From positions 1 through 48,058 of IMG/VR virus record IMGVR_UViG_3300037882_002668: 48,058 bases of DNA, one strand, 5' to 3'. Both the position numbers and the translations under genes were made by a program. Shown here one piece after another: positions 16,396 to 48,058 of the stretch (its first letter is position 1; each line of letters starts with the position of its first letter). The notes under the pieces were generated by a model that worked only from the letters and a program-made list of their open reading frames with translations, did no database searches and had not been told where the DNA came from. This stretch comes from a virus.

Positions 16396-17166
16396 TTAGT
16401 TATCGAAATTAGACAATTCGGAAACGTTGTTTAAAACGAAACCTAATGCGGTTAGTATATCCTTTAATGCTTTAGAGCCTACGATGGTGTCCAAAGTAAC
16501 TCCATTAGGTAAAATCAACATACTTGCATCAATATCACCTGAAAGGCAATAATTAGCAGACAAACTTGCACCGTTTGCCATTGTATTGATTCCTTCAATT
16601 TTCAAGATTCCAATTACATTTGCCAAATTAGCAGATGTAGCTGGACTGAATCCTTCGTCAACTCCCGCAGTTCCATTTACAATTGTAAATGTTGGCGATG
16701 TTCCGGTTCCGGTTGCGGTTAAATCAGTTTTCGCACCAACTGTTGAAGCAGTAAATACAACTGTATCTAAACTTGCACCAACAGCATCTCCGGTGGCATA
16801 TCCTGTTAAAGCACCTGAATAAGAACCAGTAGCAGTTCCCGCTCCGGTTGTAGCTCCAACTGCCAAGTTTGCAAAAGCAGCAGCTAATTCAGCCGGAGTT
16901 GTTGCGCCCGTAGAAGTATAAGTAAGACCAGCAATAATCATTGTTTGTCCCGCAGTTAAAGCAGTACCAAATTTTGCTGTTGCAGTTTCAAAAGTTCCTG
17001 AATTTCTTACTACCAAGAATCCGTCTTGAGCATCAATTTCTTCGCCAACGTTGTTGATGAAAGTACCAGTATTATATCTGTTACCGTAGGTAAAGATATT
17101 TTGCACCGTGAAGTCCATAGTGGACTGATTTCTCGTTGCGTTTCTTTGTTTTGAGTATATAGGCAT
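16396..17166 (-). CDS. Head decoration protein, lambda gpD-like with inserted domain
   Basis: 256 residues, about twice lambda gpD (110). The gpD-like parts are the ends: NVGEEIDAQDGFLVVRNSG near residue 40 and the C-terminal NVIGILKIEGINTMANGASLSANYCLSGDIDASMLILPNG. Between them, about 57-170, is a low-complexity Gly/Thr/Ala beta module (LTAGQTMIIAGLTYTSTGATT ... AELAAAFANLAVG). Such modules are seen inserted in several phage structural proteins and probably project from the capsid. It stabilises the expanded shell at three-fold positions. It is placed between protease/scaffold and capsid as in lambda. Confidence 0.75.
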   Translation of the reverse strand: MPIYSKQRNATRNQSTMDFTVQNIFTYGNRYNTGTFINNVGEEIDAQDGFLVVRNSGTFETATAKFGTALTAGQTMIIAGLTYTSTGATTPAELAAAFANLAVGATTGAGTATGSYSGALTGYATGDAVGASLDTVVFTASTVGAKTDLTATGTGTSPTFTIVNGTAGVDEGFSPATSANLANVIGILKIEGINTMANGASLSANYCLSGDIDASMLILPNGVTLDTIVGSKALKDILTALGFVLNNVSELSNFDN

Positions 17167-39856: not shown

Positions 39857-40173
39857 TTTTTTTGGATTTTAATTAATTTTAAACTATCAATTTCTGCCTT
39901 ATGAGTATAGCCTATCCTCATTTGTTCTTCCATAAAATCTAAACTTCTTGTATCTTTCACATACTGAATTGAATCTTTAGTTTTTACAAGTTGTTGGTAA
40001 AATTTTTTATCATCTGCCCTACCTTTTCTTTCTTCACTTAATTCACCTTTGAAATATATAACAATGGCTGCATTAGTGCTTAATGATAGAGAAATAGAAA
40101 ATAATAAAAGAGCTAAAACTAATTGTTGGGGAGGTAGTTTAATTAAAACCTGAATTATTCTCCATTTTGTCAT
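39853..40173 (-). CDS. Single-pass membrane protein, Rz-like spanin candidate
   Basis: 106 residues. Transmembrane segment at 18-40 (LVLALLLFSISLSLSTNAAIVIYF), then a charged helical tail (GELSEERKGRADDKKFYQQLVKTKDSIQYVKDTRSLDFMEEQMR). Inner-membrane anchored with periplasmic coiled coil, the i-spanin form. Located between holin and endolysin genes. Confidence 0.6.
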   Translation of the reverse strand: MTKWRIIQVLIKLPPQQLVLALLLFSISLSLSTNAAIVIYFKGELSEERKGRADDKKFYQQLVKTKDSIQYVKDTRSLDFMEEQMRIGYTHKAEIDSLKLIKIQKK

Positions 40174-40199
40174 CTGATTGTAGGTTGTATGGCTTTAAA

Positions 40200-40228
40200 C
40201 AATGAAACCGCCTCTTTCAAGGCGGTTA
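40200..40228 (-). terminator. Hairpin after the holin gene
   Basis: AACCGCCT...AGGCGGTT (8-bp perfect stem, six-base loop). The U tail is short, so probably partial termination or mRNA 3' end protection. Confidence 0.6.
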
Positions 40229-40232
40229 TTAA

Positions 40233-40625
40233 TTACTCTTTTTTCAATCCGTAACGAACATCATTTGGATTGAGAATGTTTATTAAAGTTGGGATGATGG
40301 CAGCAAAAGCGGTATTGATAAAGTCTGGATAATCAATAGTAAACAATGTGCTTCCTGTACTTAATTGTTCTAAGAACAAACTTATAGAAACCGTTGCAAT
40401 TGTCTTTAATACATTTCCATACCAAGTATCAAAAAAGGCATTTCCAATATTTAATGCTTTTAATGCTGCACCAAACAATGCTGCGGCTGCGGCTGAAAGT
40501 ATTGCTTCCAAACCAATATCAGAGATCATAAGACCATGAGAATATTGAAGCATAATAAAGGTTAACATCGCTGCTAAAAATTGCTTTCCATAGGTAGCAA
40601 ATACTGAACTAATTGTGTTTTTCAT
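40233..40625 (-). CDS. Putative holin
   Basis: 130 residues. Three to four hydrophobic stretches: QFLAAMLTFIMLQYSHGLMI, AILSAAAAALFGAALKALNI, VLKTIATVSISLFLEQLS and DFINTAFAAIIPTLINIL; short basic end (YGLKKE). Size, hydrophobicity and position before the spanin candidates and endolysin suggest a holin. Sequence family not recognised. Confidence 0.65.
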   Translation of the reverse strand: MKNTISSVFATYGKQFLAAMLTFIMLQYSHGLMISDIGLEAILSAAAAALFGAALKALNIGNAFFDTWYGNVLKTIATVSISLFLEQLSTGSTLFTIDYPDFINTAFAAIIPTLINILNPNDVRYGLKKE

Positions 40626-40660
40626 AATAATAATAGTTAGAGAGTTATAAATAATTAAAG

Positions 40661-40668
40661 CAAATGTA
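40661..40668 (-). promoter_or_regulatory. Promoter box TACATTTG before the lysis genes
   Basis: Matches TAnnTTTG, 36 bases upstream of the holin start; no TTG at the right distance. Would give the lysis cassette its own transcript. Confidence 0.45.
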
Positions 40669-40712
40669 AATAATTATACTAATATTTTGAATTTATATTT
40701 AATCAAAAAACA

Positions 40713-42629
40713 TTAATTTACAGGATATTCAATAGTCATTCTAAAAACTCTATATCCGGCTGATGTAGCACTTATTATAAACTCAAAGTCTGTGTCAGAA
40801 GCATTTCTTCTTATTGCTGAAAACATATCAGAAGTACTTGCGCCTGTTTGAGTTAATCCTACTGCTGCTTGTCCTGTTCCTATATAAAGTAAAACTGATG
40901 CTCCGGTAAAACCGGTAGGTACTACGGGATCGGGTAAATCACTTGGCATTGGGATTTGTATTTGAGTAACTCCTGAACCAGCAGTTGAATAATCAAAAAC
41001 AAAATCCACTACAACCCTGTTACCAATTTGCTGCCAATTATAACTTTTACTTTCAGTTCCACTTGGTGCAGATGTAGTAAAAGTAAAAGTTGGTGTTCCG
41101 GTGTATGATAACTGTCCACTATGCCTGTAAGTTATCTCTGTTCCATCAGCAGTAGAAGATGTATTATTTGCTCTAAATGTGTGAGCTGAAAGAGACTTAT
41201 TTTCTTTACTGTTTATCTGAGTTTGAGCATTGCTTGATAATGTACTTATGTATTGAAATTCTGAATCTGTTACACTACCATCAGCTATTTTAGTTGCATC
41301 AATTGTTGGTAAATCCGCATTAGTTAAATCCGATCCGGCTGTGACTAAACCTTTAGAATCATAAGTTATTTTTGTTTTTGTTGCTCCGGTTATTGGTGGA
41401 TTAGCAAATACTTTATTTTCTACATCTGCTTGAAACGCAACAACTCCATCCTCATCTTGGAATACGATTTCACGATTAACTGTTGGATTAGTAAATATTA
41501 AATCGGTTTGAAAATCTCCTTTAATTCTTGATATTCTATCATGTAAAAGCCCTAAACTACTTAATGATGTTTCATTTCTTATTTCAACTTTATTTATGGA
41601 AAATGTAGCGTAGTCTAAATTAACTATGTTTTCCATTACTAATTCATTATTACTAAAAGTAGCCACAACATCATCTACTGTACTACCTAATATTATAGGT
41701 AAATCATTAGCTACATTTCCATTTCCTAAAGTAATTTCCAAATCTTGAGAAGCTGGTGATGGTATATCTAAAAGAGTAGCAATTCTACTTGTTGCTGTAT
41801 TTGGGTACAAATAGTCAACACCATTAATATTCATTTTATTATAATAAAATTCTGTGTTATTAAATGTTGATTGCATTAAAATAGAATTTCTTGATACCTG
41901 CATTCTATCAATTCCTCCATTGCTTAAATACAATCTATCTTTATCAAAAAAAGTATTTGGTTCTAAAGTTGAAATCCCAAAATCCCAAAATCCTAATCTA
42001 CCACTATTAGAAAGTCTATCAAATCTTGTAAAAACATTAGAATTAAATCTAAAAATAAGATCATTTGAAGTACTCTCGTTTCCGGCAGACAAAATATCAT
42101 TTACAGTTTGAATAATATTTCCGGAATCATCAGCAAAAGAATCATTAACACTCAAAACTAAAGTTCCATCACCATCAGGTAATCCTTGTGTTCTATTATC
42201 TGTTAAAGAATTTTGCATCAAATTCAAGTTGAATATACCTGTATTAAAATCAATACCAGCACCAGCTTGAAATTCAATATTCTGTTCTGTGAAATTACCT
42301 AATAAAGTTGTAGTGTTTAAATCATTGGAACTTCCACCTCCACCTCCAAATGATTCCCATGAAGAACCATTATAAAAATTATATTCACCAACTGTGGTGT
42401 TGAAAATAATCAAAGAAAGTGCTGGAGAAACAATTGCATTTCTTTGAGTAGTTGTCATTCTTGGAAAGAGAAATCCTTTTGTTGTAGAACGACCTTCAAA
42501 TATTGCGCTTGAGTGCATATCATTTGTTGAAAATCCAGCTCCAAATCCAGCAATATTTCTTGTTGGTGTTGGTGTTTGAGCATAAATACTTGTAGTAATA
42601 CAAAATAATAGAAATAACAGTTTTTTCAT
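40713..42629 (-). CDS. Fibre-like protein with a signal peptide
   Basis: 638 residues. MKKLLFLLFCITTSIYAQ is a Sec signal. Then GFLFPRMTTTQRNAIVSPALSLIIFNTTVGEYNFYNGSSWES (52-93), the head-attachment pattern of many Bacteroidota surface and phage fibre proteins. The middle is a beta repeat stalk (DNRTQGLPDGDGTLVLSV). The segment TKTKITYDSKGLVTAGSDLTNADLPTIDATKIADGSVTDS (about 410-450) is typical of tail fibres. The C-terminal jelly-roll-like domain runs from about 510. A cleaved fibre would be unusual; it may be exported to the cell surface. It lies downstream of the portal. Confidence 0.7.
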   Translation of the reverse strand: MKKLLFLLFCITTSIYAQTPTPTRNIAGFGAGFSTNDMHSSAIFEGRSTTKGFLFPRMTTTQRNAIVSPALSLIIFNTTVGEYNFYNGSSWESFGGGGGSSNDLNTTTLLGNFTEQNIEFQAGAGIDFNTGIFNLNLMQNSLTDNRTQGLPDGDGTLVLSVNDSFADDSGNIIQTVNDILSAGNESTSNDLIFRFNSNVFTRFDRLSNSGRLGFWDFGISTLEPNTFFDKDRLYLSNGGIDRMQVSRNSILMQSTFNNTEFYYNKMNINGVDYLYPNTATSRIATLLDIPSPASQDLEITLGNGNVANDLPIILGSTVDDVVATFSNNELVMENIVNLDYATFSINKVEIRNETSLSSLGLLHDRISRIKGDFQTDLIFTNPTVNREIVFQDEDGVVAFQADVENKVFANPPITGATKTKITYDSKGLVTAGSDLTNADLPTIDATKIADGSVTDSEFQYISTLSSNAQTQINSKENKSLSAHTFRANNTSSTADGTEITYRHSGQLSYTGTPTFTFTTSAPSGTESKSYNWQQIGNRVVVDFVFDYSTAGSGVTQIQIPMPSDLPDPVVPTGFTGASVLLYIGTGQAAVGLTQTGASTSDMFSAIRRNASDTDFEFIISATSAGYRVFRMTIEYPVN

Positions 42630-42641
42630 TTTTTTAAATTT

Positions 42642-42998
42642 TTAATTTGATGTTAATTGTAAAATGTCATCCGCAGATGCATTGCTTAATATTGTTAAAG
42701 AAGTTCCAACTACGGAATATGTACAAAACAAAGAGTTACTTTGATTGTAAACAGTTCCCGAATAACCAGAAGATACTATAATTGCACTTGAACCATCCCA
42801 TTGTAATATTCTATTAAACGAGACTGATGAAGTTGGAGATACATTAATCCAATTTCCATCTTCTGTTGGTTCAGTATTTATACCACTTATGTTTTGCCAA
42901 TAATTTCCGAGATGTTTAACAACCTTATTGACACTATACCTTTGTTTTTCGTTCCAATCAGGTATATTACTAACAATTCTATTTTGGTTCGCTATCAT
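42642..42998 (-). CDS. Small carbohydrate-binding-like fibre protein
   Basis: 118 residues. WNEKQRYSVNKVVKHLGNYWQNISGINTEPTEDGNWINVSP (15-55) resembles the CBM5/12-like module (Y-x-x-x-x-V ... YW ... N-x-x-P-x-x-GxW) found in phage fibres. The C-terminus is a strand-rich Ser/Thr domain. Probably binds surface sugars. It lies 8 bases after the portal gene and before the fibre-like protein. Confidence 0.6.
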   Translation of the reverse strand: MIANQNRIVSNIPDWNEKQRYSVNKVVKHLGNYWQNISGINTEPTEDGNWINVSPTSSVSFNRILQWDGSSAIIVSSGYSGTVYNQSNSLFCTYSVVGTSLTILSNASADDILQLTSN

Positions 42999-43006
42999 TT
43001 TTAGAT

Positions 43007-44662
43007 TTATTTTTCGTTTTTCTGTGGTTTTTCTTTTTTATTAATATCAGAATCGGGCTTATTGGTGATGTTCATCATTGCATCAACTTGTTCTTTTGGA
43101 ATTAAGTTTCTTTCTTCTTCAAGTTTCTTGTAATTTTGCATCCATTCTCCAACACCTAATATTTCGGTTGCTTGATCCATAGAAATTAAATTCAACTGTA
43201 ACATTAATTCAACCGCTTTTACCTCTTTCAACGGATCAATATGTGGCATATTTTTACCCATAAATCTACATTGTGAATAACTTTTGGTTATCATAAAATT
43301 ATCGATTCCTTCTAAATATCCATTTGCAGTTATTTTTCGGGAAAGAATTTGATGGTTTAACCATAATTCGTAAATAGGCTTGTAAAAATTTATAGCAAAT
43401 TTTTCTCTCTTGATGTCAATTATATAACCAAAACTATTTATGGCCGCCCTAGATGCAGAATAATTTGAATTATACTCTTGCATTGCAACTTCCGGAGGAA
43501 CATTCACACCAGCACTAATTGATTTAAAAATTGTTTCCGAGAACTCTTTATATGAACTTGCGTTGTCAACTTGATGTGGTTTTAAACTAGCACCTTGAGG
43601 CATATTATATGTCATTCCGGCTGCTGTTTCACTAATTTGATTTGCTAAACCATCAGCTAAAACACGATCTTTTCCAGATTCATCAACAGAATTAATTTGA
43701 GTTCCGCTTCTTACTTTTTTAACTCTATCCATAAGAGGGTTTTCGCCTGTGGAAAATTCTTCATGTTCTATGGTATAAACAATTTTTGCTGATTGTTCTT
43801 CTTTTATAACAGATGCTTCGGTATATCTATCTAATTTGTTTATTTTTTCTAAAGATTGTGACATCTCCGGAACCGATCTAAGATGATCCGGAGCAATTTT
43901 ATTTCCGGCAACCAACCAAACCAAACGTTTTTTTGATTTTGCTCCAAAAGCAGCAATTCTTTCCGATTTAATAGTTCCGTCCGGTTGTTTTACATTGACA
44001 AAATATGCAATATGAGAGCCTTTTTTATCTAGTTCTATTCCACATTCAATTCTGTTGTTATTGTTTTTGGCGGTTGAATAATAATCATTATTTTCTAGTG
44101 GTGGATTTTTAATGTGTTCTCCTGAAATAGTCTGTACTGTAAGACCTGAATCATCAAATCGGCAGACAACTAAAAAATCACCTCCTAAAAATTCCATTTG
44201 AAAACCTTCCATTGCAATTTCATGTAGGGTTTTTTCCTTCATATAATCCATTTCTTTTGAACTTGCATAAATCATAAATCTTGATTCACAAAGTTGTTGA
44301 AACGATTTATAATCATCGTCTGTATTAATAATTCCTTCTGACTTTAAAACAAGTCTATTTGGTTCTGATTGTAGTTTTAATCCTTCTCCAATTGTCCAAA
44401 AGAAAAATTTTGAGGCAATAATTTTTATTGTATCAATAGTAGCGTAGGCATGATAAGACCTTAATCTTAACCTTTCATAATCCGGAATGTTTTTTACAAC
44501 AACACCAAGTTCTCCTAATGTTTTTTCACCATCCCATCTTTTATTTAAAATTGGATATGCCGGACCATAAGTAACTGTATTGTCTTGAACAAAATTACTA
44601 TTTGGTGTTGACTGTGATTTTTTTTCCGCTTTTTGTAATCCGAAGAATGATAATAATCCCAT
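43007..44662 (-). CDS. Portal protein, lambda gpB-type
   Basis: 551 residues, near lambda gpB (533). LRLRSYHAYATIDTIKIIASKFFFWTIGEGLKLQSEPNR (about 59-98), then KTLHEIAMEGFQMEFLGGDFLVVCRFDDSGLTVQTISGEHIKNPP and APDHLRSVPEMSQSLEKINKLDRYTEASVIKEEQSAKIVYTIEH follow the family. The C-terminus is Lys-rich and disordered. The dodecameric portal is the DNA channel of the head. It overlaps neither neighbour; the head-completion gene lies 9 bases upstream. Confidence 0.9.
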   Translation of the reverse strand: MGLLSFFGLQKAEKKSQSTPNSNFVQDNTVTYGPAYPILNKRWDGEKTLGELGVVVKNIPDYERLRLRSYHAYATIDTIKIIASKFFFWTIGEGLKLQSEPNRLVLKSEGIINTDDDYKSFQQLCESRFMIYASSKEMDYMKEKTLHEIAMEGFQMEFLGGDFLVVCRFDDSGLTVQTISGEHIKNPPLENNDYYSTAKNNNNRIECGIELDKKGSHIAYFVNVKQPDGTIKSERIAAFGAKSKKRLVWLVAGNKIAPDHLRSVPEMSQSLEKINKLDRYTEASVIKEEQSAKIVYTIEHEEFSTGENPLMDRVKKVRSGTQINSVDESGKDRVLADGLANQISETAAGMTYNMPQGASLKPHQVDNASSYKEFSETIFKSISAGVNVPPEVAMQEYNSNYSASRAAINSFGYIIDIKREKFAINFYKPIYELWLNHQILSRKITANGYLEGIDNFMITKSYSQCRFMGKNMPHIDPLKEVKAVELMLQLNLISMDQATEILGVGEWMQNYKKLEEERNLIPKEQVDAMMNITNKPDSDINKKEKPQKNEK

Positions 44663-44671
44663 AATTTAGTT

Positions 44672-44965
44672 TTAAAGACCGCCACCTATCAATCTAATAC
44701 TTCTGCCACTAGCTTGATTAACGTACATTTGTCTAATTTTTATTAACCCATTCATTGCTTTCGTCATATCATCAATATTTCGATATTGCGCTCTGACTTT
44801 CATTTGACCATCATCCATTTCATATTGGATTAAATGTCCAGAAACAGTAGCTTTTAATATCGATTGTTCCATGCTATTAATAAGTATATCATAAGTTGCA
44901 ATCTTTCCAATTAATTTGGATTTGCACTCAAAATATTGATCTATTGACATATAATCTAAATTCAT
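44672..44965 (-). CDS. Head completion protein, gpW-like
   Basis: 97 residues from MNLDYMSIDQYF. A GTG earlier in frame lies inside the leader terminator and is rejected. AKTHEGL-like core is absent, but YFECKSKLIGKIATYDILINSMEQSILKATVSGHLIQYEMDDGQMKVRAQYRNIDDMTKAMNGLIKIRQMY fits gpW (helix, beta hairpin, helix). It seals the portal before tail attachment. First gene after the late promoter at 45073. Confidence 0.75.
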   Translation of the reverse strand: MNLDYMSIDQYFECKSKLIGKIATYDILINSMEQSILKATVSGHLIQYEMDDGQMKVRAQYRNIDDMTKAMNGLIKIRQMYVNQASGRSIRLIGGGL

Positions 44966-44982
44966 AATATAATTTTTAAAAC

Positions 44983-45014
44983 AAAAAAGAGTATCCACAA
45001 AATGCAGACACTCT
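44983..45014 (-). terminator. Leader terminator before the portal operon
   Basis: AGAGTGTC...GATACTCT, 8-bp stem with one G-U, 11-base loop, followed by U6. Sits between the late promoter and the gpW start. Confidence 0.75.
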
Positions 45015-45040
45015 ATTTGTCGTTAATTTTTTGCCCCGTG

Positions 45041-45054
45041 TCTCACAACAATAG
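45041..45054 (-). promoter_or_regulatory. Leader box CTATTGTTGTGAGA, copy 2
   Basis: Same 14 bases as 18526-18539. Starts about 13 bases after the expected transcript start; terminator follows 27 bases later. Confidence 0.55.
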
Positions 45055-45072
45055 CCATTTGATTAATCTGTA

Positions 45073-45080
45073 CAAATATA
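45073..45080 (-). promoter_or_regulatory. Late promoter for the portal operon
   Basis: TATATTTG in TATATATTTGTAC; identical core to 18554-18561. The terminase genes end just before it, with their own terminator. Confidence 0.65.
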
Positions 45081-45096
45081 TAAAAAATATGAAACA

Positions 45097-45125
45097 AAAA
45101 ACCCCCCAATAAAATTGAGAGGCTT
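45097..45125 (-). terminator. Terminator after the terminase genes
   Basis: AAGCCTCTCAA...TTGGGGGGTTT, 11-bp stem with G-U pairs and a U6 tail. Separates terminase from portal transcription. Confidence 0.75.
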
Positions 45126-45167
45126 TCCGATCAAAAAACAAAACTAGAAAATGTCTTGACAAATATA

Positions 45168-47198
45168 TCAATAATTAATTAAGTCACAATACATTCTCCA
45201 AGTCAAATCTTTTGGTACGTCCTCGTGTAATTTCATATCAGCAATAAAAATTTCCCTCGCAGCTTCTTTGTAAACTGCTAAATCCCAATAGTGATTGTTT
45301 TCTCTTTTCTTTTTCCAAGCGTAACCAACTTCTACTTTATTTACAATTTTAGGAATTCTATGTTCAGATTCATAATGAGAAAAATAATTGTTCAAATTGT
45401 ATTTTCCACCGGATGGTTGTGGAAAATTCATAAAACCATCCGGTTGAGTGCCATCAGTTCCTTGAACTAAAGACATATTAGCCGCTACTTTGTCTTTAAG
45501 TAAATTAACATCCAACATATATAACAAACCTTTATTTTCTTGAGAATGTTTAATAAGAGGGGAATTTGCATTAGATTTTCTATATTCGGTGATTTCATCT
45601 CCTTTGATACCAAAAATTTTCCTGTCTTTAATACTGCTTACAAAATTATAAGCTAGTTTTGTAAATTTACCCGTATCAACTATCGTAACATCAATATCGA
45701 AAAACATACCGCTTTCACCTTCTAAAGTTCTATAAACTATCTCTTTTAATAGCGGCCAAACGGAATTCTCTACACTATGATTGTAAGTGTATCTTTTTCT
45801 TTCAATATCTTCAATTTTACTTCTTTTCACATCACGATTTCTTTGAAAAGTACCAATACTTCCGTGGTCAATAGAATATGTTTGTCCCATTGATGTATGA
45901 GCCACAATTTCCCAATCTAAACGAACATCTTCATCTTGATTTATAGTGTCCATAATACCTCCTAAGTCACAACACAAAGTAATTAAGGCAATTTTTCCAT
46001 TACCATCTTTTTCACAAGTTAAATCAGGTATTTTTCCGATTTCATAATCTCTAACATTTTCCATAAGACCATTAACACGAGGCGATGTCCCTCTATCTTC
46101 CCAAAGTTCTCCGAGCTGTGTATTCGTAAAAACTTTTAATTTATCAATATCAACTGGTTTGCCAGGTGGACAAGCAGCGACAAACTGAGAGGCTAAATCT
46201 GCCCAAGATTCAAATCCAGGAGGGTTACACAAAGCGTTAAAACTATAACTTCTATATGAGGGTTTTTTTGGGGTGGCGGTTGGAATCCATTTCCCTGTCA
46301 AATTCAAAGAATATTTCATTTTATATTCTATTTTTCCTTTACAATTTTGACATTCATAATGTACAGAATCACTAATTACTTGACCTTCTTCGTCAAGTTT
46401 CCATTTTATTCCTCCGGTTGTGCCATCAGCTCGTTCTATACTCCATAATATTGGAATGTATTTTTTACAATGAGGACAACACCAATTCCATTGTCTTTTG
46501 TCTCCCATATTGTAAACGCCCTCAATATTTGATACACCCATAGTTGTAGGAGATGACATAAACACTAATCTTCTAGTATCAGCATAAGATTTTGTTCTTG
46601 CTAAAACCAAATCAAAAATTGATCCTTCTTTTTTATCAAGTTTTGGAGCATCATCATACTCGTCAGCAACCACCACTTCAACAGAATAAAATCTTAAATT
46701 TGATGGTTTATAAGTTTTATTTGTCAAGCTGCCTCCAGTAAATTCTTTTTTTAAATCTGTATCTCCGGTTCTTTGATTTGCTTTACTTGTAGAACTAGAT
46801 TTTATAAGTCCTTTTAAACCGGATGATTCTATTACAGTATCAAATCTGCCACGCATTGTATCTTTTATCAACACATCTGAACTTGTTAAAAAAAGCATAT
46901 TAGTTGGAGCTTCCGAAATATGATAAACCAACGTAGGAATAGCAACACTCTGAGTAAATCCTGATTGGGAACATTTCATTACTGCTGAAATCTCCACACC
47001 GGAATTTGGCATCATATTATCAACAACTTCTCTTGTGTATGGAGATCTTTTATAACTAAACAATCCTGAAAATCTTGATTCTGAATCAAGATAAATGGTT
47101 TTTTCAACCCATTCACTAGGAATAGGAGTTTTCATGTTGAAATTATAAATATTCTCTTGAATCCGATAAAGATTCTTGGTTATCAGTTCTTTTAGCAT
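45168..47198 (-). CDS. Terminase large subunit, lambda gpA-type
   Basis: 676 residues, close to lambda gpA (641). Motor and nuclease that cuts and packages concatemeric DNA. Walker A-like MKCSQSGFTQS (about 75-85), Walker B VVVADEYDDAP (about 174-184), then LVFMSSPTTMGVSNIEGVYNMGDKRQWNWCCPHCKKYIPILW (about 215-256), which holds a CCPHC zinc-type site. Late nuclease stretch around LCCDLGGIMDTIN and FFDIDVTIVDTGKF supplies acidic residues. gpA-type enzymes normally make cohesive ends. Confidence 0.9.
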   Translation of the reverse strand: MLKELITKNLYRIQENIYNFNMKTPIPSEWVEKTIYLDSESRFSGLFSYKRSPYTREVVDNMMPNSGVEISAVMKCSQSGFTQSVAIPTLVYHISEAPTNMLFLTSSDVLIKDTMRGRFDTVIESSGLKGLIKSSSTSKANQRTGDTDLKKEFTGGSLTNKTYKPSNLRFYSVEVVVADEYDDAPKLDKKEGSIFDLVLARTKSYADTRRLVFMSSPTTMGVSNIEGVYNMGDKRQWNWCCPHCKKYIPILWSIERADGTTGGIKWKLDEEGQVISDSVHYECQNCKGKIEYKMKYSLNLTGKWIPTATPKKPSYRSYSFNALCNPPGFESWADLASQFVAACPPGKPVDIDKLKVFTNTQLGELWEDRGTSPRVNGLMENVRDYEIGKIPDLTCEKDGNGKIALITLCCDLGGIMDTINQDEDVRLDWEIVAHTSMGQTYSIDHGSIGTFQRNRDVKRSKIEDIERKRYTYNHSVENSVWPLLKEIVYRTLEGESGMFFDIDVTIVDTGKFTKLAYNFVSSIKDRKIFGIKGDEITEYRKSNANSPLIKHSQENKGLLYMLDVNLLKDKVAANMSLVQGTDGTQPDGFMNFPQPSGGKYNLNNYFSHYESEHRIPKIVNKVEVGYAWKKKRENNHYWDLAVYKEAAREIFIADMKLHEDVPKDLTWRMYCDLINY

Positions 47199-47201
47199 AT
47201 T

Positions 47202-47990
47202 TTATTTTTTTTCACCACGAGATCTTAAATCTGAATATTCTTGAACCAAAATATCAATATCGTGGTTAGATTTTTCTTTAGATTTTTCAATTATATGGTC
47301 TAAAACCCCTTCTAATTCTATCATTACAGAATGTAAATCTTCATTTGTTCCTCCTAATCTATGAACCGTCACAGAAGCAATGTTTTTTAAATTAGAATGA
47401 AAGGATTTGAATATTGCTTTATAATTAATCGACATCAAACTCATTGCTTTGTCTAATGGTATTGTATTTCCCATTTTTTTTTCAATCTCCATTGTCTTTA
47501 ATTCCACTTCTCGTTCCTTGGCAATGGCGTTTGCTTTTTTTAATCTCAAATCATAATCTAACAATTCTTTACGGGCTTTTTCTTCTTCTCTACGAAGCCT
47601 TCTATCTTCGGCAGATTCTTTTATTTCAGGAACTTCATTATCCTTTGTAAGAGTTTGATTTATTTTTTTTGTGGTTATAGGTTCTTCTTTAGGTGTTGAT
47701 TTTGCTGATGGTTTTGATTTTTTTTCATTAGAAATTGATTTTTTTTCTGATGGTTTTGTTGCAACAATAAGTTTTCTTTGTATATTTGACTTAGAATTTA
47801 GATCAAATGGTATAAAAACATCTTGATTTCCACCATTTATCTCTAATAAATAAGCATAATTTAAGCGGTTTTCAGTATCTATTAAACCCTTTTTGTTGCA
47901 ACAAAGTTGCTTTCTGCTTATCTTACTTCTAATAGTGCCATCCTTTACTCCTAGAGCAATTCCGAAGTCAATTCTTTTCACTAAAGCCAT
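47202..47990 (-). CDS. Terminase small subunit, gpNu1-like
   Basis: 262 residues. The N-terminal winged helix is visible: VKRIDFGIALGVKDGTIRSKISRKQL, then LIDTENRLNYAYLLEING, as in gpNu1 ('x-x-DFG-x-x-x-x-T-x-x-x'). The middle (80-145) is Lys/Ser/Glu-rich and disordered, and a coiled coil follows (DRRLRREEEKARKELLDYDLRLKKANAIAKEREVELKTMEIEKK). The C-terminus probably contacts gpA, which starts 4 bases downstream. Its coding DNA holds two of the three palindromes described at 47756-48017. Confidence 0.85.
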   Translation of the reverse strand: MALVKRIDFGIALGVKDGTIRSKISRKQLCCNKKGLIDTENRLNYAYLLEINGGNQDVFIPFDLNSKSNIQRKLIVATKPSEKKSISNEKKSKPSAKSTPKEEPITTKKINQTLTKDNEVPEIKESAEDRRLRREEEKARKELLDYDLRLKKANAIAKEREVELKTMEIEKKMGNTIPLDKAMSLMSINYKAIFKSFHSNLKNIASVTVHRLGGTNEDLHSVMIELEGVLDHIIEKSKEKSNHDIDILVQEYSDLRSRGEKK

Positions 47991-48017
47991 TTTTTATCCT
48001 TGTTTTGTTGCAACAAA
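47756..48017. repeat. Three TTGTTGCAACAA palindromes, candidate cos/pac and operator
   Basis: Perfect palindromes at 47756-47767 (12 bp), 47893-47904 (14 bp with one extra pair on each side) and 48006-48015 core within 48004-48017 (14 bp). Two lie in the small terminase gene, the third overlaps its promoter box. The coding copies fall in different reading frames (Cys-Cys-Asn versus Val-Ala-Thr), so conservation is at DNA level. No other exact copy was noticed elsewhere in the window. Confidence 0.75.
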
Positions 48018-48021
48018 TATA
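48014..48021 (-). promoter_or_regulatory. Promoter box for the terminase genes
   Basis: TATATTTG on the minus strand, 24 bases before the terS start. The palindrome at 48004-48017 overlaps its TTTG half and the transcript start, so a protein bound there would block transcription. The region 48022-48058 holds no gene. Confidence 0.55.
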
Positions 48022-48058
48022 GCAAAACAAAAGGGAAAACTGTTGCATTGTCGAAAAA

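Follow-up and report, generated by a model that had tools for sequence, protein, structure and literature searches.

Repeated half-sites around terS as a probable cosB-type packaging site in a relative of Flavobacterium phages FL-1 and FCL-2

The virus record IMGVR_UViG_3300037882_002668 of IMG/VR, a linear record of 48,058 bases that was analysed in its entirety and is called the window here, belongs to a tailed phage whose relatives include the Flavobacterium phages FL-1 and FCL-2. Its right end carries the small terminase gene, terS, together with a cluster of repeated sites that lie upstream of the gene, on its promoter and within its coding sequence. A preliminary description of this DNA had pointed out three palindromes at terS and proposed that the small terminase, TerS, binds them to define a packaging site (cos or pac) and to repress its own gene. 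The features of the region are as follows:

47202-47990, minus strand: terS (phrog_5193, E 1.3e-47), which precedes the large terminase gene terL and whose product was modelled with AlphaFold2.
47756-47767, no strand: site D, the third palindrome, an exact copy of TTGTTGCAACAA within terS (codons 75-78), a putative accessory site.
47892-47905, no strand: site C, TTTGTTGCAACAAA within terS (codons 29-33), where the wing region of the predicted DNA-binding domain of TerS is encoded.
48004-48017, no strand: site B, the 14-bp palindrome TTTGTTGCAACAAA, overlapping the -7 box of terS and the predicted transcription start.
48014-48021, minus strand: predicted -7 promoter box TATATTTG (flavobacterial consensus TAnnTTTG), whose 3'-terminal TTTG is common to site B.
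48041-48046, minus strand: site A, a single half-site GCAACA (TGTTGC on the plus strand), which corresponds to bp 50 from the left chromosome end of relatives and, by position, to R3 of lambda and N15.

Scanning the record for the 12-mer TTGTTGCAACAA returned three exact copies (47756-47767, 47893-47904 and 48005-48016), the second and third of which widen to perfect 14-bp palindromes TTTGTTGCAACAAA (47892-47905 and 48004-48017), just as had been described; the start-to-start distances are 137 bp, as given before, and 112 bp, where 111 had been reported. Under a first-order Markov model 0.017 exact copies are expected in the whole window. The search for copies spread over the genome, which had been proposed as a check, found none with zero or one mismatch in the rest of the record, and with up to two mismatches nine matches were seen against 7.5 expected, so the degenerate copies are attributable to chance. 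The record contains 15 perfect palindromes of at least 12 bp, the last three being these copies. Also as described, one copy lies on the terS promoter, where it covers the -7 box, and the two copies inside terS fall in different reading frames (V-A-T versus C-C-N codons); at least two such palindromes appeared in only 0.13% of synonymous-codon shuffles of terS (P 0.0013). The record has 32 GCAACA half-sites, seven of which fall within its last 302 bases. At the opposite end, several poly-A/poly-T runs in the intergenic stretch 500-610 make AAAAAATTTTTT palindromes.

To compare this region among relatives we searched with TerL and TerS and obtained about 16 usable terS starts, from FL-1, FCV-1/FCL-2, metagenomic contigs and two contigs of metagenome-assembled genomes labelled Bacteroidetes and Aquimarina; these genomes are non-independent samples and several are contig fragments. 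The nearest named relatives by TerL are FL-1 (63.6% identity) and the FCL-2/FCV-1 group (47.6%), whose records give the genus Ficleduovirus. We excluded contig L013 as a probable assembly chimera: in L013:1-185 the terS promoter region stands inverted directly upstream of terL with terS absent between them, the partner being the near-identical phage of L004.

Positions in the relatives were counted from a 13-bp sequence, ATRGGTTGCGCAY (bp 1-13), at which their genomes or contigs end, and which takes the forms ATATGTTCCGCAC in L114, ATGTGTTGCGATC in FCV-1 and ATACGTTGCGCAC in L118. Half-site A lies at bp 49-50 in all 11 relatives with a readable end and is the site whose position is best conserved, while the -7 box TAnnTTTG and site B keep to bp 74-76 and bp 85-87, respectively, in ten of the 11, the terS ATG of the same ten drifting between bp 101 and 109. 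The half-site of site C is found at terS +91 in ten relatives and in the window, and at +82 to +93 in three others, and counterparts of site D, half-sites of each genome's own form, occur at variable positions (terS +173 to +228) in L117, FL-1, L018, L116, L114 and FCV-1. In the complete relatives the 12-mer with at most one mismatch is present at site B and almost nowhere else. The motif is kept in relatives, though its palindromic form is often reduced to a half-site, and the conserved unit is the half-site rather than the palindrome taken as the unit before; the clusters of sites number at least four, not three, and include the previously unlisted 48041-48046.

FL-1, whose record begins one base before the 13-mer, has it at both ends, as does the 49,140-bp contig G012, and the FL-1 ends have been confirmed by primer walking (PMC5465603). 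Four more contigs stop exactly at it (G002, G003, G004 and G017; G003 and G004 show no difference across the 8,120 bp that were compared and were counted as one phage), and five others (L018, L060, L107, L116 and L117) read through the junction, as would concatemers or circles. A 13-bp sequence common to both ends fits filled-in cohesive ends, whose exact nick positions are inferred; formally, it may instead be a very short terminal repeat. Since half-site A of the window corresponds to bp 50, the window would end 37 bp short of the chromosome end of its relatives. These ends, falling just past the right end of the window, support the earlier placement of the cut near the window end and of the palindromes within a packaging-initiation region, and of the two kinds of site left open by "cos/pac" they favour cos and speak against pac. 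All six contigs that reach far enough upstream of the 13-mer carry a GGTACTG box there, five at -32 and L118 at -31, a cosQ candidate upstream of the putative cosN in a stretch that lies outside the window; in the form AAAAAGGTACTGTRA it is conserved about 32 bp before the 13-mer in L107, L060, L116, L018 and L117, and it also stands at the right ends of L006 and L198. In the window GGTACTG occurs once, at 16962, and is missing from the end opposite terS, where the record is therefore probably incomplete as well.

Two further details of these ends were noted in named phages. FCL-2 (L010:1-20, L011:1120-1143) is about 12 bases shorter at its left end than FCV-1 (L007:1-20), by TATGTGTTGCGATCGGCG, as if library preparation had removed the single-stranded cohesive end. 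The FCV-1 record (L008, GenBank KY979235.1) closes with 35 bases, CTGTCTCTTATACACATCT, which we take to be leftover Nextera adapter, and the true right end is visible in FCL-2.

Seven half-site forms were found among the genomes and, with few exceptions, all sites of a genome share one form: GCAACA in the window, L004, L019, L021, L060, L107 and L117; GCGACA in L051; GCAATG in FL-1, L018 and L116; GTAACA in L020 and L111; GGGACA in L114; GTAACC in L113; and GCAACT in FCV-1. Site B is more mixed, having one GCAACA half in L051 and, in FL-1, L018 and L116, a left half GCAACA with a right half GCAACG or GCAATG. Counts of the forms in the terS 5' region of each genome are nearly diagonal, and the expectations from the rest of the locus are mostly below 0.5. 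The forms were named after inspecting the sites; the permutation test, by contrast, relied on fixed coordinate intervals instead of any motif and compared the longest words common to sites within and between genomes, with one representative per form. Words shared within a genome exceeded those shared between genomes for sites A and B (exact p 0.008) and for the pairs C-B and A-C (p 1/5040 each). At site C the encoded amino acids vary between genomes, and the DNA nevertheless keeps each genome's own form.

A pattern of two exact 12-mers had no match in viral contigs, as the palindromic form is not widely conserved; a promoter pattern matched 49 stretches, only a handful of them terS relatives, and a cos pattern matched 81, among which five carry the GGTACTG box typical of the window's phage family. 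Four additional 13-mer matches in the metagenome-assembled genome behind L117 look like chance, being followed by neither the site layout nor a terS-like open reading frame. In Cellulophaga phage phi38:2, whose TerS and TerL are related, a repeated site was not recognised on inspection by eye only.

The half-site form tracks the N-terminal 62 residues of TerS when its C-terminal 115 are controlled for (partial r 0.52, permutation p 0.003); in the reverse comparison, with the C-terminal identity tested and the N-terminus controlled, the partial r is 0.04. L019 and L111 constitute a natural domain swap: their TerS C-termini are 85% identical and their N-termini 51%, the helix sequences are GTIRSKISRG and VTVRQRIVRG, and the forms are GCAACA and GTAACA. 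The N-terminal domain of the window's TerS is confidently modelled as a winged helix-turn-helix, with a predicted local distance difference test score (pLDDT) of 89.8, helices at residues 6-13 and 17-25, and strands thereafter. Together, the concerted change of the sites and their tracking of this helix-turn-helix point to TerS as the ligand, and the sites are most likely bound by the phage's own TerS. Elsewhere in the protein, the linker of TerS is variable and probably disordered; many relatives keep in it a patch resembling KxKGSVKVAPxVETKK (e.g. L005:460-505 and L004:415-470), which is nearly identical between FL-1 and L004 even in DNA and is not recognisable in the window. In L020:41-1345 (IMGVR_UViG_3300049847_000273) terS encodes 434 amino acids, with an in-frame linker insert of about 150 residues that contains CxxC pairs and by eye resembles an HNH endonuclease, and in L004:264-269 an in-frame TAG stands at about codon 61 of a terS whose remainder aligns well, the gene being broken or the assembly in error.

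Flavobacterial -7 boxes have the consensus TAnnTTTG and span -12 to -5 (PMC9723704), which predicts the terS transcription start of the window near 48009, inside site B, and bound TerS should therefore compete with RNA polymerase. In the relatives site B follows the -7 box at a fixed distance; a conserved TTG -33 element was not seen at these promoters. TerS on site B would exclude RNA polymerase and so lower terS expression once enough of the protein had been made. Autorepression of this kind is plausible, since it fits the geometry of site and promoter and has a precedent in SPP1, and whether TerS does repress terS we judge to be evenly balanced.

Taken together, these data argue strongly that the sites are the cosB-type packaging-initiation site of the phage's own TerS, with the cut just past the right end of the window. 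The small terminase would bind the repeats, which would form a lambda-like cosB, and would grip them to start loading DNA; sites C and D are assigned their roles from position and sequence alone. Several observations weigh against this interpretation. The window itself lacks cosN, and its end position is extrapolated from relatives; site C was not found in L020 and L111; and L118 retains site A but then departs from the layout. On the protein side, a Foldseek search with the TerS domain returned weak MerR-type matches only (E above 0.6), and TerS has neither a sequence match to gpNu1 nor a Pfam small-terminase family at E up to 1. Sites A and B, moreover, physically adjoin the TerS N-terminus, and linked inheritance alone could correlate them, although linkage cannot account for separate sites changing together. 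Finally, internal half-sites taken by themselves are not significant against synonymous shuffling in several relatives.

This last point also speaks for the possibility that the palindromes are functionless, a matter of chance or a by-product of codon use and the promoter box, whose TTTG does supply part of site B. Such an origin is hard to credit given three exact copies where 0.017 were expected, the rarity of two internal palindromes among synonymous shuffles, the DNA of site C following its genome's form while its amino acids differ, the permutation tests, and the own-form counts and fixed layout in relatives; we rejected chance and codon bias on these grounds and regard them as extremely improbable. 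A separate phage or host regulator of terS or the late promoter might instead use the sites as operators, their likeness to R sites being incidental: A and B flank or overlap the conserved -7 box, and with no conserved -33 element an activator could be needed. Yet site A keeps a fixed distance from the chromosome end, at bp 50, where lambda and N15 have R3, further sites lie inside terS, no other promoter in the complete relatives bears the motif, and the form follows the TerS N-terminus, all of which makes operators unlikely. The region could also be a pac for headful packaging, as in SPP1, whose pac likewise overlaps both the terS promoter and the stretch of the gene that encodes the DNA-binding domain. 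We rejected a pac, and hold it to be very unlikely, as the ends of the relatives are sharp and identical and share the 13-bp sequence, those of FL-1 were found by primer walking (PMC5465603), and TerL is of the cos-cutting GpA family.

The packaging genes next to terS are the following:

45168-47198, minus strand: terL, 676 amino acids, lambda gpA family (PF05876, E 1.5e-47; PF20454, E 1.4e-37; both well past the cut-off).
43007-44662, minus strand: portal protein gene, lambda family (PF05136, E 1.6e-39).

Between these two lies a small gene (44672-44998, minus strand) of the function-unknown family phrog_5196 (E 5e-32), listed with a GTG start. An Rfam scan of 40000-48058 gave no match, and neither a search of PDB sequences with the TerS alignment (no chain at E up to 10) nor a plasmid search with TerS returned a hit.

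Detailed knowledge of how TerS recognises cosB comes mainly from lambda, 21 and N15 (see also PMC9026076 and PMC4669245). In the literature searched we found no account of cos for the window's Bacteroidetes phage family, nor a published account of cos or TerS sites for FL-1, FCL-2 or FCV-1. The layout described here would be a cos in which one TerS site is fused to the terS promoter and another is embedded in the part of terS that encodes the DNA-binding domain, so that TerS would switch the region from transcription to packaging. Altering the specificity would then need the concerted change of several sites and the protein, a process that seven natural specificities within one phage family may record; to this broader proposal we lend belief and doubt in equal measure. 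With seven site forms, each paired with its own recognition domain, the evolution of specificity and the proposed switch from transcription to packaging become directly testable in phages already available, among them FCL-2 and FL-1, and from the layout the chromosome ends can be predicted for many metagenomic contigs. That the first site is kept at bp 50 across very distant phages suggests a geometric constraint of GpA-type terminases.

Among known systems, the closest are FL-1 and FCL-2/FCV-1, which share the terS-terL order, the site layout and the kind of chromosome end, and differ in half-site form (GCAATG/GCAACG in FL-1, GCAACT in FCV-1). With the lambda-like cosB of lambda, 21 and phi80 (R3-I1-R2-R1) the region shares repeated candidate TerS sites beside the chromosome end and terS, a TerL of the GpA type, fixed ends with a short complementary sequence beside terS (in the relatives), and a first site at about bp 50: R3 occupies bp 50-65 in lambda and bp 48-59 in N15 (PMC9026076, PMC4669245), and in every one of the 11 relatives the first site lies at bp 49-50. 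The cohesive ends of lambda have 12 nucleotides, against a shared end sequence of 13 bp here. The packaging specificities of lambda and 21 are set by the recognition helix and the R sites (PMC9026076, PMC4669245), much as site and helix appear to set them here, and the recognition helix of lambda, residues 17-24 (PMC9026076), compares with a modelled helix at 17-25 in the TerS of the window. In lambda, however, all three R sites precede terS, which starts at bp 191, R2 is inverted, and a site for integration host factor lies between R3 and R2, whereas here terS starts near bp 105 and is preceded by one half-site and one promoter palindrome, sites C and D lie inside the gene, sites B to D are palindromic in the window, and TerS has no detectable sequence similarity to gpNu1; the region is not the complex cosB of lambda. 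It also resembles the cosB of N15 (R3 and rR2), in which terS begins at bp 89 and contains another matching site at bp 249-260 (PMC4669245, PMC9026076), a single upstream site being combined with an accessory site within terS; an additional promoter site, one or two terS-internal sites and an unrelated site sequence set the present region apart.

The promoter site recalls the pac of SPP1 and SF6, where the TerS-binding region overlaps the terS promoter, the ribosome-binding site and the codons of the DNA-binding domain, as candidate site B here shares TTTG with the predicted promoter; SPP1 TerS is described as repressing its own synthesis (Chai 1997, as cited in PMC6316719 and PMC4737164). SPP1 has a headful pac with imprecise, permuted ends, in contrast to the sharp, identical ends of the relatives and the GpA-type TerL found here, and recognition by SF6 TerS is described as largely sequence-independent, whereas the present motif is sharp. 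By analogy with these systems, the region would work like a cosB with a promoter overlap in the style of the SPP1 pac.
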